Part shown: one piece after another, positions 5,781 to 46,572 of the stretch
Numbering within the stretch: the first letter of the stretch is position 1
Layout of the letters: each line of letters begins with the position of its first letter
NCBI RefSeq assembly: GCF_024464655.1
Contig: NZ_JANHAV010000006.1
Location: forward strand, 62,001 to 126,000
Direction of reading: 5' to 3'
DNA length: 64,000 nt
Source of the DNA: Halobellus inordinatus
GTDB lineage: Archaea > Halobacteriota > Halobacteria > Halobacteriales > Haloferacaceae
The notes under the pieces: model-generated
Database searches by the model: none
What the model was told of the DNA's origin: nothing
The model's input: the letters and a program-made list of their open reading frames with translations, nothing else
Translations under genes and position numbers: made by a program

Positions 5781-5883
5781 ACGCCGGCGACTCCCGGACC
5801 CGACCGGTTCGGAATTCTTCGATCTATGCCGCGGTTTTCGTTTTCACCTTTTCGACGGACCCCGTGAGCGCGACGTATCCTGA

Positions 5884-5962
5884 TACTGTCGGACAGAACG
5901 ATGTGAAGCGTATCGCCACCCTGTGGGTGCCAACCGACTTCACGAACTGCTGTCCGACAGTA
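5884..5962. repeat. Palindromic element family A, copy A1
   Basis: 79 bp, beginning and ending with TA. The outer arms are TACTGTCGGACAG and CTGTCCGACAGTA, perfectly complementary. A second nested pair follows (ATGTGAAG against CTTCACGA) and then a central hairpin (GCCACCC-TGT-GGGTGCC). The whole element folds end to end. It lies in the 319-nt gap between two convergent genes, together with B1. The asymmetric TGTGAA/CGTGAA arms give the element a direction; A1 and A4 point the same way. Confidence 0.85.
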
Positions 5963-5985
5963 TGAGCGGAGCCGACACGCTCTTA

Positions 5986-6063
5986 TAGGGGTTATCGTAA
6001 GTCTCCAGAGATGTCTCGCCGGACGGGACGGCGAGAATCTCCGAACAGTTACGATAATCCCTA
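5986..6063. repeat. Palindromic element family B, copy B1
   Basis: 78 bp with TA at both ends. The terminal arms are TAGGGGTTATCGTAA and TTACGATAATCCCTA (one G-T mismatch). The central hairpin is CTCGCCG/CGGCGAG. Just inside the arms lie GTCTC (left) and ACAG (right), motifs shared with families C and D. B1 is 23 bp from A1 in the same convergent gap. A near-identical copy (B2) is at 24555-24632. Confidence 0.85.
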
Positions 6064-8558: not shown

Positions 8559-8567
8559 GACGCATCT

Positions 8568-8650
8568 ATCGTCGGGGTTGCCACTGATTCCGCACCCGAT
8601 CACACGCTGTCGGGCGATCGGGTGAGCGAAGGCTTGCAAATGCTACTGTA
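8568..8650. repeat. Degenerate palindromic element family C, copy C2
   Basis: The right half aligns well with C1 at 36088-36167: an inner hairpin arm (CACCCGATC against GATCGGGTG), the ACGCTGTCG loop, and then CTTGCAAATGCTACTGTA as the terminal arm. The left arm is eroded (ctatcgtcggggttgcc in place of CTATAGTAGCATTTGCAA). It lies in the 229-nt gap between two convergent genes. Beyond it up to 8787 nothing else is recognisable. Confidence 0.6.
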
Positions 8651-16637: not shown

Positions 16638-17016
16638 GTGGCTAAGAGGTTCCCTTGGATCTAAGAAAAGCCTTCTGAAAAGCATTGAAAAAAGGGGCGA
16701 TTTGCTAGCCCAGAAAGTTAACGAACAAACGAGTATACTCCGAATATCGAACATACTGAGAAGCGAGTTGCAAATATTGCGCGAGTAACTGACCGTTCGT
16801 CCACAAGCAATTTCGAACGCGTGACGGGGAAGGGGCGGGACCGACCGATCGGGAGTTCTGGAGCTTTCATACTATCGGACAGAAGTTCGTGAATGATGTT
16901 GGCACCCACGGGGTGCCGAGACGCTTCACACAGTTCTGTCCGACAGTATCAATCGGGGTGTGCTCTACCGACGCCGGAAGGCAAAGTCCTTCTCACCGGA
17001 CGAAAAACGTGAGCGT
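16638..17016. other. Divergent promoter region korA / flavoprotein
   Basis: A 379-nt gap between divergent genes. The korA side is AT-rich with several A/T runs (16656-16700), where its promoter should lie. The middle contains palindromic element A2 (16870-16948). Nothing coding is visible. The cluster is the only place where one of these elements sits between two gene starts. Confidence 0.6.
16870..16948. repeat. Palindromic element family A, copy A2
   Basis: 79 bp with TA ends. The outer arms are TACTATCGGACAG and CTGTCCGACAGTA (one mismatch). The central hairpin is GGCACCC-ACG-GGGTGCC. The inner arms carry CGTGAA on the left and TTCACA on the right, the reverse of A1, so A2 is inverted relative to A1. 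It lies between divergent genes, unlike the other copies. Confidence 0.85.
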
Positions 17017-17655
17017 ATGGACGCGACAGTCGCCGTCGGCGCCGTCAGAGACGTCGGACCGCAGACGGTTGCACTCGAGTTGGAGTCACCGGACGGATTC
17101 GACGCCGAGCCTGGACAGTTCATCAAACTCGCCGCCACTGTCGAGGGCGAGGAGTACGCGCGCTTCTATACGCTCTCCTCGCCGGGCGTCGACGACACCT
17201 TCGAGGTCACCGTCGGCGTCGATCCCGAGGAGGCCGGCCCGTTCAGCCAGTTCCTGCTCGACCTCGAAGCGGGAGACGAGCTCGATATCTCCGGGCCGTT
17301 CGGACAGAGCTACTACGAAGGGGAGGCACGCGTCGTCGTTCTCGCGGGGGGACCGGGCGTCGGCCCCGCGGTCGGCATCGCCGAGGCCGCCGTCGACGAC
17401 GGCAACGAGGCCGCGATCGTATACCAGACAGACACGCCCGCGCACGAGAGCCGCCTCGACGCGCTCCGGGAGGCGGGCGCGTCTGTCGTCGTCGTCGACG
17501 GCGCGGTCGACGAGGAGGTCGCCGCCGCAGTGACCGGCGCCGACGACGAGCAGGTGTTCGTCTACGGCTTCGCGGCGTTCGTCGAGGACGCCACGGCGGC
17601 GCTCGACGTCGCCGGCGTCGACCCCGACGACGCGAAAGTCGAAAACTTCGGCTGA
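17017..17655 (+). CDS. FAD/NAD(P)-binding oxidoreductase (ferredoxin-NADP reductase type)
   Basis: A 212-residue flavoprotein of the ferredoxin-NADP+ reductase superfamily. The FAD-binding barrel contains PGQFIKLAATVEGEEYARFYTLSSPG (the RxYS-type motif). Then come the loop DISGPFGQSYY and the nucleotide-binding start VVVLAGGPGVGPAVGIAEAA. The C-terminus ends VENFG. It may pass electrons between ferredoxin and NAD(P), for example ferredoxin reduced by the adjacent KorAB; this link is inferred from position only. The ATG at 17017 was chosen over an upstream frame that overlaps element A2. Confidence 0.88.
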   Translation: MDATVAVGAVRDVGPQTVALELESPDGFDAEPGQFIKLAATVEGEEYARFYTLSSPGVDDTFEVTVGVDPEEAGPFSQFLLDLEAGDELDISGPFGQSYYEGEARVVVLAGGPGVGPAVGIAEAAVDDGNEAAIVYQTDTPAHESRLDALREAGASVVVVDGAVDEEVAAAVTGADDEQVFVYGFAAFVEDATAALDVAGVDPDDAKVENFG

Positions 17656-17733
17656 TACTGTCGAACAGACGTCCGTGAAGCAGTGCGGCACCGGGGGGAG
17701 CCGAGCATCTTCACATCGGTCTGTCCGACAGTA
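17656..17733. repeat. Palindromic element family A, copy A3, filling a convergent spacer
   Basis: 78 bp with TA ends. The arms are TACTGTCGAACAGA and TCTGTCCGACAGTA. It begins at the base after the TGA stop of the flavoprotein gene and ends at the base before the TGA stop of the convergent nosY gene. The element is therefore the entire spacer. The central hairpin is slightly degraded (GGCACC/GGAGCC). The inner arms have CGTGAAG on the left and TTCACATC on the right, the same direction as A2. It is well placed as a bidirectional terminator. Confidence 0.88.
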
Positions 17734-18744
17734 TCAGGATTCGATTTCTTCGACGGCGGGCCAGACCCGCCAGACGGCGACCGCGAGACTGCCGACCAGC
17801 CACACGAGCAGACCGACAGTGTTCAAAAGCGGGTCGCCCGCGTTCACTTCCGCGCCGCCGACGACACCGACCGCCGTCGAGAGAACTAGCCCGCGGAACG
17901 CGCTGTTCGGGCTCAGCGCCAGGAGTGCCGTGAGACCGCTTTCGGGAAGCACGCCGCTCGCGAGGCCGGCAACCAGCGCGGTGTCGATGCCGAGAACGAG
18001 CGCCAGCGCCAGCGCGGCGGCGAGTGCGAACGCCGTCCGGACGGTTCGCGCCGCGGCCGAGATCGCGATCGTCGCGGCGAGCACGACGAGCGTGAAGACG
18101 GCCGCGAGGACGACGAACCGAACGTAGCGGACGCCCGAGTCGGCCGCGGCGTTGATCGCCAGGAACGTCGGGATGTCCGCCGTGAGGAACGGGACGAACA
18201 GCCCCACGACGAACAGGGTTGCGACCACGACGCCGACGAGCGCGAGCGCGCGCCCCAGATAGACCCCGCCGACGTAGGAGACCCGGCGCACGTCGTACGT
18301 CCGGAGGACGTCCAACTCGCCGGTCTGGCGGTCTCCGAGGATCGATCGGTAGCCGAACGCGACTGCGAGCAGCGGGACGAGCACCTCGACGAACGTCAGC
18401 AGGTCGAGCGTCAGGGGGACGAACCCGCCGCCACCGCCCGTTCCGGCCCACGCGACGCCGACGACGCTCAGCGTGAACGCCGCCGAGAGCGCGAGCAGCG
18501 CCGGCGTCCGGGCGATTGTCCGGAGTTCGCGCGTCGCGACGACGAAGAGGTTCGTTCGGAGACGAGCGAACTCGCCCCGTTCGGCCGCCGCGCTCGCTTC
18601 GTCGCCCTCGCCGGTCGTCGCCTCGGTCTGTTCGTCCTCCACTGCGGCCTCGCTCGCAGACGCGTCGACCTGCCCGTTGCCCGCGGCCGTCGACCCGTCC
18701 GCCGACCGCGCGTCGGCGCTCTCGTCGGCGTCCGGCTCACTCAC
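17734..18744 (-). CDS. nosY: NosY-like ABC-2 permease
   Basis: Membrane permease of 336 residues for the NosDFY copper/sulfur-type ABC system. It has a Ser/Ala/Asp-rich N-terminal extension of about 70 residues. Six hydrophobic helices follow, beginning ALLALSAAFTLSVVGVAWAG, then DRQTGELDVLRTYDVRR, a typical NosY loop, and ending AVWRVWPAVEEIES. The start is a GTG at 18744 (VSEPDADES) that overlaps the end of the ATPase gene by 8 nt. The longer ATG-initiated frame overlaps nosF too far. Last gene of the nosLDFY operon. Confidence 0.85.
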   Translation of the reverse strand: MSEPDADESADARSADGSTAAGNGQVDASASEAAVEDEQTEATTGEGDEASAAAERGEFARLRTNLFVVATRELRTIARTPALLALSAAFTLSVVGVAWAGTGGGGGFVPLTLDLLTFVEVLVPLLAVAFGYRSILGDRQTGELDVLRTYDVRRVSYVGGVYLGRALALVGVVVATLFVVGLFVPFLTADIPTFLAINAAADSGVRYVRFVVLAAVFTLVVLAATIAISAAARTVRTAFALAAALALALVLGIDTALVAGLASGVLPESGLTALLALSPNSAFRGLVLSTAVGVVGGAEVNAGDPLLNTVGLLVWLVGSLAVAVWRVWPAVEEIES

Positions 18745-24404: not shown

Positions 24405-24715
24405 ACGGCGCAAAGCGCCCCGCGACCTGATTCCTCTCTCGGATGCGGCCGAGTCGCGGATCGGCGTAGACGCCGTCAGAGTGCAGATAGCGGCGCGAGC
24501 GTTTTCCTGGTATGTTCAGCATATCCTACCGCGAGCCTCACTTCGCTCTGCTTATAGGGGTTATCGTAAGTCTCCATAGATTTCTCGCCGAACGGTACGG
24601 CGAGAATCTCCGAACAGTTACGATAATCCCTATTAGTGAGACCGGTTTTTGCGCGGTGGATTCCCGCAGCGGAGCGAAACGCCGTGGGGAAACCTCACCG
24701 TCGAAAAAGGTGGAG
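24405..24715. other. Convergent intergenic region
   Basis: 311 nt between the ends of acs and the acetyltransferase gene. It contains palindromic element B2 and otherwise short GC-rich sequence without a plausible gene. Confidence 0.6.
24555..24632. repeat. Palindromic element family B, copy B2
   Basis: 78 bp with TA ends and arms identical to B1 (TAGGGGTTATCGTAAG and the matching right arm). Differences from B1 are confined to the loop and the inner stem region, for example an ATAGATTT segment in place of AGAGATGT and AACGGTA in the central loop. The inner CTCGCCG/CGGCGAG hairpin is kept. Both B copies also share the preceding tetramer ctta, which may be part of a longer target or element end. 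Confidence 0.88.
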
Positions 24716-26071: not shown

Positions 26072-26151
26072 TAATGATTACTCTCGTCTCTTACCGCCGA
26101 CCATCGCCACCGGGAGTAGCGCTCGGCGGTCAACAGTGAGAGTAATCACTA
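26072..26151. repeat. Palindromic element family D
   Basis: 80 bp with TA ends. The terminal arms are TAATGATTACTCTC and GAGAGTAATCACTA (one mismatch). The inner hairpin is ACCGCCGA/TCGGCGGT. GTCTC lies directly after the left arm and ACAGT before the right arm, as in families B and C. The right end abuts the TGA stop codon (26152-26154, minus strand) of the glycosyltransferase gene. Convergent location. Only one copy is seen in the window. Confidence 0.8.
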
Positions 26152-27195
26152 TCAGACGATTTCCTCGTAGAACGCGATGGTCTCTTCGACGACTTCGTCC
26201 CAGGTGATCGGGTCGTACGTCGGCGCACCGTCGAGTTCGAGACCGCGCTCGATTCCATCTGCGAGCGACTCAGATTCGGGTTCGACCTCGACGACGCACT
26301 CCTCGGAGAGCACCTCGTTGACGCCGCTCTCGGTCGCAACCACGCGCGTCCCGGCCGAGAGCGCCTCGGTGATCGTGATCCCGAACGGCTCGGCGAGCGA
26401 CGGCGAGACGAACAGATCCGCAGACGCGTAGTAGTCGCCCAGTTCCTCCTCGGGCACGTAGCCGACCCACTCGATCTGGTCGTCGACGTCGAGTAGTTCC
26501 GCGAATCGCTTGAGCTGTGCCGTGAGATGCCCCGAACCGCCCATCACGAGCGTCACGTCGTCTCGACGGAGCTTCTCTAAGGCGTACACGAGGTGGGCGA
26601 TCCCCTTCTGATCGGTGTGACGACCGACGAAGAAGAGCATCTCGCCGTCGATTCCGAGTTCGGTTTTGAAGTCTCGCCCGGTCGTCTCACACTCCGAGAA
26701 CCCGTTGTAGATGACCCGGCAATCGCCGCCGTAGTGTTCGCGAACGTCGCCGGCGGTGAGTTCGCTGACGGCGATGAGGTGATCCGCGCGTTCGGCGAGT
26801 CGGCGCTCGGTCTCGACTTCCCTCTTTGGCGGATCGAGGTTCCGATCGGTCGACAGCGAGTGGAAGGTCGTGACCCACTCGACGTCCGCGTTCGACTTCG
26901 CGCGCGACCCGGGGCCGTAGCCGAACCAGTCGTGTGTGTGGACGATGTCTGCGTCCTGGGCGCGCTCGGCGAACGTCGAACTCATCCGCCCCACGCGCGT
27001 GGTGATGTCGCCGTCGCCGGTCGGCACGCCGACGATTCCTGCTCTGTCTTCGGGGGCGTACTCGGACGGAAGAACGAGTTCGACGTCGAGGCCCCGCGCT
27101 CGCATTCCGTCGAACAACTCCCCGACGTGGGTGTCGAGTCCGCCGCTCACGTTCGGCGGAAACCCCCAGCCCAGCATCAGCACTTTCGGCGACAT
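26152..27195 (-). CDS. Glycosyltransferase family 4
   Basis: GT-B fold glycosyltransferase of 347 residues. The N-terminal acceptor domain starts VLMLGWGFPPNVSGGLDTHVGELFDGM. The C-terminal donor domain has FFVGRHTDQKGIAHLVYAL and the EX7E motif in SLAEPFGITITEALSAGTRVVA. The start MSPKVLMLGWG was chosen; an in-frame ATG ten codons upstream is possible. The likely substrate is a nucleotide sugar for glycan or trehalose-type synthesis, not resolved. The stop codon touches element D. Confidence 0.9.
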   Translation of the reverse strand: MSPKVLMLGWGFPPNVSGGLDTHVGELFDGMRARGLDVELVLPSEYAPEDRAGIVGVPTGDGDITTRVGRMSSTFAERAQDADIVHTHDWFGYGPGSRAKSNADVEWVTTFHSLSTDRNLDPPKREVETERRLAERADHLIAVSELTAGDVREHYGGDCRVIYNGFSECETTGRDFKTELGIDGEMLFFVGRHTDQKGIAHLVYALEKLRRDDVTLVMGGSGHLTAQLKRFAELLDVDDQIEWVGYVPEEELGDYYASADLFVSPSLAEPFGITITEALSAGTRVVATESGVNEVLSEECVVEVEPESESLADGIERGLELDGAPTYDPITWDEVVEETIAFYEEIV

Positions 27196-36087: not shown

Positions 36088-36167
36088 TAGTAGCATTTGC
36101 AAGTCTTCACGCATCCGATCGTACGCTGTCGTGCGGTCGGATGAGCAATCAGTTGCAAACGCTACTA
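36088..36167. repeat. Palindromic element family C, copy C1
   Basis: 80 bp with TA ends. The terminal arms are TAGTAGCATTTGCAA and TTGCAAACGCTACTA (one mismatch), extending outward by a few bases as ctatag/ctatag. The inner hairpin is CATCCGATCGTACG paired with CGTGCGGTCGGATG (G-T pairs) around CTGT. GTCTT lies inside the left arm and CAG inside the right arm. A decayed copy (C2) is at 8568-8650. Confidence 0.85.
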
Positions 36168-45399: not shown

Positions 45400-45477
45400 T
45401 ACTGTCGGACAGAACTATGTGAAAATCACCGGCACCCGTGGGTGCCAACATCATTCACGAACTTCTGTCCGATAGTA
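45400..45477. repeat. Palindromic element family A, copy A4
   Basis: 78 bp with TA ends. The arms are TACTGTCGGACAGAA and TTCTGTCCGATAGTA. The central hairpin is GGCACCC-GT-GGGTGCC, perfect. The inner arms carry TGTGAA on the left and TTCACGAA on the right, the same direction as A1. Its right end directly abuts the TGA stop codon (45478-45480, minus) of the MOT1-like gene. Confidence 0.88.
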
Positions 45478-46572
45478 TCAGTCGTCGCGGAACCGCTTGC
45501 GCAGCAGATACGCCGCAATCCCGACCACGAACGCGACGCCGACGTTCGTCACGACGCCGAGGACGCCGATGCCGACCGTGAGCGAGAGCGAGTCGGTTTC
45601 GAGGCCAGCACGGCCGAGTTCGACGGCGATCACCGCGAGGACGACCCCGAGCATCGCCAGGGGGAACGCCGCGACCGCGCCCACGGCGACGACGGCCGCC
45701 AGCGCGTAGAGAACCCCGAGGATGAGATTTGCCCCCGCCGTCCGCGCGCCGAAGGCGTACTTGCCCGCGACGCCACCGCTACCGTGACACATCGGCATCG
45801 CACCCAGCGGGACCGCGAGGAGGTTCATCGCGCCCATACTGCTCGCGAGGTCGTCGGCAGAGACGTCCGCGTCGTAGTAATCCGAGAGCAGAAGCGACGT
45901 CGCGACGGCCGCGTTGCCGACGGTCATCGCCAACTGCGCGACAGTCGCGCCGATCGAATCCGACGAGAGTCCCGCCGTACTCGGCAGGGCGAGCGCCGCG
46001 GTCGGAAGGTGCGGGTCCGGGAGCCCGGTCTGTCCCAGTCCGATGCCGATGCCCACCGCGAGTACGGCCAGCGTGCTCGCCCGTCGCTGACCGATCGCGA
46101 CGCTGATCCCGACGACGGCGAGTGCGAGGAGCGCGTACCAGACGCCGTCGAGGCTCAACCGGACTCCCGTTTCGAGAAGCACGAGCCCGACGGCCAACTG
46201 GACGCCACGAATCACTGGCTGGCCGACGTACCGTTCGATTCGCGCGAGCGTCCCAGTCGCGCCGACAGCGAGGAGGATGCCCCCGGCGAGGAGCCCGGCG
46301 ACCGCCAGTTCAGACGTCGTCAGCGAACCGGCGATGACGAGCGCCGCGAGCGCCTTCATCGGCTCGACCGATATCGGGAGCCCGTAGTGGAGCCCCCAGA
46401 CGACCTGAAAGACCGCAAAGCCGAGCAGGAGCCGTGAAAGCGAGAGGTCCGTGAGCGCCGCGGCGGCAACGACGACCGGGAGAACAGTAACCGAATCTCC
46501 TAACGCTCCCGTGAGTTCGTTTCGGGAGAAATCGAGCCGGTTACTGTACTGGCTCCGGGCGAAGACGTCCAT
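45478..46572 (-). CDS. MOT1-like molybdate/sulfate permease
   Basis: 364-residue membrane protein with about 10 hydrophobic helices. NELTGALGDSVTVLPVVVAAAALTDLSLSRLLLGFAVFQVVWGLHYGLPISVEPMKAL at the N-terminus is the signature of the putative sulfate/molybdate (MOT1) family. The second half repeats it as MGAMNLLAVPLGAMPMCHGSGGVAGKYAFGARTAGANLILG. It lies beside a ModE-like regulator and tupABC, so molybdate or tungstate uptake is plausible. An in-frame GTG precedes the ATG by three bases. Confidence 0.85.
   Translation of the reverse strand: MDVFARSQYSNRLDFSRNELTGALGDSVTVLPVVVAAAALTDLSLSRLLLGFAVFQVVWGLHYGLPISVEPMKALAALVIAGSLTTSELAVAGLLAGGILLAVGATGTLARIERYVGQPVIRGVQLAVGLVLLETGVRLSLDGVWYALLALAVVGISVAIGQRRASTLAVLAVGIGIGLGQTGLPDPHLPTAALALPSTAGLSSDSIGATVAQLAMTVGNAAVATSLLLSDYYDADVSADDLASSMGAMNLLAVPLGAMPMCHGSGGVAGKYAFGARTAGANLILGVLYALAAVVAVGAVAAFPLAMLGVVLAVIAVELGRAGLETDSLSLTVGIGVLGVVTNVGVAFVVGIAAYLLRKRFRDD

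Follow-up and report, generated by a model that had tools for sequence, protein, structure and literature searches.

Overall, element A3, which exactly fills the space between two convergent stop codons in a 64,000-nt stretch of the Halobellus inordinatus genome (the window), is a copy of a MITE family of ~79 nt that inserts at TNA, preferably at CTSAG in a GC-rich context. Its placement is very probably that of a mobile element with a stop-codon-compatible TNA target, whose insertions at stops survive, and a terminator function is not needed to explain it.

A3 lies flush with two convergent stop codons

Positions 17650-17740 read GGC TGA, then TACTGTCG...CGACAGTA, then TCA GGA, with zero spare bases. 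In the wider context, A3 is flanked by AACTTCGGC TGA on the left and TCA GGATTCG on the right, and its ends are TACTGTCGAACAG...CTGTCCGACAGTA. The element itself occupies 78 nt (17656-17733, no strand assigned) and matches the covariance model of family A with E=8.9e-16. The TGA at 17653-17655 (+) is the stop of the left gene (16960-17655, +), and the TCA at 17734-17736 is the minus-strand TGA stop of the right gene (17734-18744, -); the names flavoprotein and nosY for these genes are those of the original prediction. All gene calls were made with a codon-usage gene finder, a simple tool trained on stretches from the Halobellus genome studied here (G000), which independently placed the gene ends at 17655 (+) and 17734 (-). 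Both the sequence and the gene finder thus confirmed the earlier claim that A3 sits without a spare base between two convergent stops.

This double fit is exceptional. Among the 68 full-length copies of family A, A3 is the only one flush with a stop on both sides, and among the 59 TNA-flanked copies it is the only one whose flanking triplets (TGA and TCA) are reverse complements. One clean insertion could not have produced the double fit, since a triplet that reads as a stop on one strand never does so on the other.

Family A is a MITE family with a TNA target

The family A element is a 79-nt imperfect palindrome, and its copies are 77-79 nt long and non-coding. Its terminal inverted repeats are TACTGTCGGACAG / CTGTCCGACAGTA, and the pair cells of the end helix are paired in 97% of cases over 59 copies. 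Searching G000 (3.4 Mb) with a covariance model based on 19 copies gave 66 strong copies and a few fragments, about 70 in total. TNA stands on both sides of 59 of the 68 full-length copies, and in 57 of these 59 the middle base is the same (chance 41%, p=3e-20). Identical TNA on both sides indicates a 3-bp target-site duplication, and family A is therefore a MITE family. It combines a non-coding length below 500 bp with terminal inverted repeats, target-site duplication, many dispersed copies and orthologous sites that lack the element. The wider target approximates CTSAG and has C or G at positions further out; an A hardly ever adjoins the triplet. A minority of A-type insertions carries a 2-bp TA duplication in place of TNA (L044, L048, L049 and C16:377061 in G000).

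Besides A3, the window holds three copies, located by the covariance model and their flanks. A1 (5884-5962, +) lies within a TGA/TGA duplication (5881-5883 and 5963-5965). A2 (16870-16948, -) has a TCA/TCA duplication and was placed in a divergent gap by the gene finder. A4 (45400-45477, +) also has a TCA/TCA duplication, and the TCA on its right serves as stop codon for the minus-strand gene at 45478, which bears out the earlier statement that A4 adjoins a TGA stop.

Outside G000, ten exact copies were present in the same-genus relative G094, and Halobellus clavatus also has ten, with matching sequences. The near-identity and exact ends of the ten H. clavatus copies imply a recent spread. Apart from the young, near-identical set in G094, other members of the genus have 0 to 3 matches. 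The 13-nt ends of family A recur around different interiors in Natronorubrum, Natronolimnohabitans and others. Unannotated copies or matches were also seen on plasmids, at 95% identity in Halobellus ramosii (L217) and 72% in Haloarcula hispanica pHH400 (L218). On viral contigs, the exact full element was not found, and the 33 single-end matches are about the chance level.

Some copies in G000 are nested or lie within predicted genes. Around C11:588281 (L077) an A copy is split by a copy of family B, and around C19:130907 (L086) an A copy is split by a B copy that is itself joined or interrupted by a family D copy; these nested elements give relative ages. Predicted genes at C16:273794 and C19:201854 each contain an A copy whose duplication is intact; these are either real disruptions or errors of the gene finder.

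Other palindrome families in the window

Two further families duplicate TNA. Family D (TAGGGATTATCG..., 78 nt) is unrelated to A in sequence and has a TNA duplication alike. It is represented in the window at 5986-6063 (TAGGGGTTATCG..., TTA/TGA flanks) and at 24555-24632 (TTA/TTA duplication), neither with an assigned strand, and by 24 more complete copies in the G000 stretches; 12 of 20 clean copies are at stops. Family E (TAATGATTACTC..., 80 nt) is the third TNA-duplicating palindrome family, with copies in the window and in L070, L099, L103 and L108, and 3 of its 4 clean copies are at stops. Its window copy (26072-26151, no strand assigned) has a TCA/TCA duplication, the right TCA being a minus-strand stop. 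The original prediction had an element "D" touching a stop; this is possibly the family E element, which does touch a stop at 26152.

Family B (TAGTAGC...GCTACTA, 80 nt) behaves differently. The copy at 36088-36167 (no strand assigned) has a TA duplication in a CTAG target, a degenerate copy lies at 8566-8650, and 10 more copies accompany the one at 36088-36167, with CTAG-like targets and TA duplication. The TA duplication suggests that family B may depend on a different kind of transposase. Although B is as palindromic as A, none of 11 copies contacts a stop (p=0.002). Family B cannot preserve a stop, because no stop codon ends in TA. Within the window, the only Rfam families at gathering score were two tRNAs.

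Target preference as the probable basis of stop-codon contact

The stop codon TGA matches TNA, as does TCA, which reads as a stop on the minus strand; an insertion at either one doubles the stop without damage to the gene. Such insertions therefore persist, and roughly half of the copies are in contact with a stop. We compiled position statistics over 616 kb, comprising the window and 60 stretches, most of which were picked around A copies. In this sample, 40 of 81 clean TNA-family insertions (49%) adjoin a stop, with 25 of 57 for family A and the D and E counts given above. A target model estimated from non-stop insertions only predicted 41% at stops (bootstrap 33-49%), and the prediction rose to 48% when the 60 nt preceding each gene start were left out. 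When only the nearest base was modelled, 22% was predicted (p about 1e-6 against the observed share); the excess at stops vanishes only with context to about 8 bases, a preference estimated from 41 insertions.

The twofold excess under the nearest-base model, the high share at exact stops and its occurrence in three sequence-unrelated families would fit a mobiliser that is actively directed to stop codons or to the 3′ ends of genes, for instance via transcription or translation termination, beyond any sequence preference. We regard such targeting as highly improbable, given that the wider motif derived from non-stop insertions already predicts 41%, that half of the insertions lie elsewhere, including 16% between divergent genes, and that only 10 of 32 copies in other hosts are at stops. 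It is likewise quite improbable that unrelated haloarchaeal MITE families have a common mobiliser seeking stops or 3′ ends, with the stop regenerated by the 3-bp duplication and some copies now forming gene 3′ ends.

Alternatively, insertion at TNA may be near random, with purifying selection purging insertions in promoters and genes so that copies at stops remain. The divergent gaps hold 16% of insertions compared with 23-33% expected from site density, and among the young H. clavatus copies 3 of 10 are at stops. However, purifying selection alone gives no account of exact stops exceeding sites 1-50 nt downstream, and the target context clearly matters, as seen in the near absence of A beside the triplet. 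We therefore consider this explanation unlikely.

The stop-compatible target is also reflected in the overall distribution. Convergent gene pairs hold 32% of the 81 insertions, tandem pairs 52% and divergent pairs 16%, where 32/45/23 was predicted. The enrichment is confined to the exact stop codon: 4 copies lie 1-20 nt past a stop (3.7 expected), fewer than expected lie at 21-100 nt, and the whole 1-100 nt interval holds 10 copies where about 16 were expected. Once the target preference is included, placement is thus like random intergenic placement, the outcome that the original prediction had itself named as evidence against terminators. Its alternative of strong selection for insertion at these positions survives in the form of CTNAG-like targeting, with stops making up a large share of the tolerant TNA sites. 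Its count of seven of nine elements between convergent units is correct for the window provided that tRNA-Leu counts as a unit beside B2. The full set of 81 TNA-family insertions does not share this pattern, its convergent share being the 32% given above.

Evidence on a terminator role

The elements had been proposed to act as bidirectional terminators or 3′-end protectors that are selectively kept between convergent genes. Several observations agree with this proposal. Those A copies that were folded give a stable hairpin on either strand, convergent units flank seven of the nine elements in the window, and half of the TNA-family copies are at a stop. Moreover, a hairpin can partially terminate in Haloferax volcanii, where one tested structure terminated 59% of transcripts (PMC7237163). 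Against it, the class distribution is that of the target model, and enrichment is found at the exact stop and not 1-100 nt past it. In Haloferax, intergenic terminators are mainly marked by a T stretch (PMC7237163), whereas no run of T5 or A5 occurs inside any of the 68 family A copies. Past the end of the element, T5 appears no more often than at other gene ends (2 of 31 vs 21 of 489). Over 59 copies, only 4 double changes were found in 26 pairs, and 96.1% of the pair cells were paired compared with 95.8% after shuffling, that is, there is almost no covariation. The orientation of family A relative to the touched gene is unbiased (14 to 15). The lack of stop contact in family B, together with the prediction of the target model, points to target compatibility and not hairpin function.

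Orthologous gene ends, the comparison put forward earlier as a check on the terminator proposal, also argue against it. The element is absent from the A3 gene end in 10 of 11 relatives and from the A4 gene end in 11 of 11, and the orthologous gene end of the copy at C19:167632 lacks it in G104. Base-exact empty sites could not be demonstrated in the relatives, whose flanks are at least 13% diverged. In view of these data, a terminator or protector role is very unlikely, and some weak effect of the elements on transcript 3′ ends is possible.

Origin of the double fit

Between the same two genes, the relative G099 has a decayed element that matches the model with E=1.5e-4. On the right it directly abuts the nosY TCA, as A3 does; on the left, 10 nt separate it from the flavoprotein TGA, and GCA replaces the left triplet. 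The nearest relative, G104, has the A3 site without the element. From the boundary common to G000 and G099, we infer that the TCA at 17734-17736 was the original target triplet and that A3 most likely entered at the nosY stop. The few bases between the flavoprotein TGA and A3, including the left copy of TCA, would then have been lost or changed in G000, giving rise to the double fit. The presence of A3 in G000 and G099 may reflect either a single shared insertion that G104 subsequently lost or two independent insertions at a favoured site, and both are possible.

The putative mobiliser

Family A would be moved in trans by a transposase. Searches with PF01609 in four genomes (including G000 and G094) and with PF13358 and PF13586 in G000 and G094 yielded no transposase with matching ends. 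Additionally, no autonomous partner emerged from solo ends in G000, from long-range end pairs in a set of loci or from six plasmid matches. An apparent terminal-repeat pair in L166 was rejected, as the left repeat falls within the transposase gene. A 3-bp TNA duplication is a trait of the IS1031 group of the IS5 family. Family A has this duplication in common with the group, but an IS5-type transposase with family A ends was not found in these searches, and we do not claim membership.

Relation to known elements and implications

Prokaryotic MITEs are short, non-coding and intergenic, occur in many copies, have terminal inverted repeats and direct repeats, and form a stable hairpin when transcribed (Minnick 2024, PMC10969869). 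Family A resembles them in these traits and stands apart in its GC-rich target, its 3-bp TNA duplication and its very high share of exact stops. The small mobile repeats (SMRs) of the haloarchaeon Haloquadratum walsbyi are 80-110 nt long with terminal inverted repeats, reach up to 54 copies and have no known matching transposase (PMC3119063). However, SMRs leave their target unduplicated and go into other mobile elements, whereas family A duplicates TNA and occupies ordinary gaps between genes; with this duplication, family A does not belong to the SMRs. QMITE2 of Coxiella, found mainly in 3′ untranslated and intergenic regions, is similar in its placement at gene ends and between genes but differs in length (150-190 nt) and in its variable duplications of 7-11 nt (PMC5896051). 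REP palindromes of the GTAG and CGTC families are described as dispersed extragenic sequences of 20-40 nt with one tagged end, for which termination or mRNA stabilisation has been proposed (PMC3733652). Compared with that description, family A has full inverted repeats, a target duplication, a length of 79 nt and TACTGTCGG ends in place of a GTAG or CGTC end, and it is not a REP sequence on these grounds. Our literature search found no description of families A, D, E or B, and the terminal repeat sequence appeared in no relevant paper.

The functional account of paired terminators is thus replaced by a simple one of mobile elements. With a 3-bp TNA target, a transposon can occupy stop codons without cost, since the duplication rebuilds the stop. 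Where elements in compact archaeal genomes appear to fit exactly to stop codons, target duplications should be looked for before terminators are proposed.
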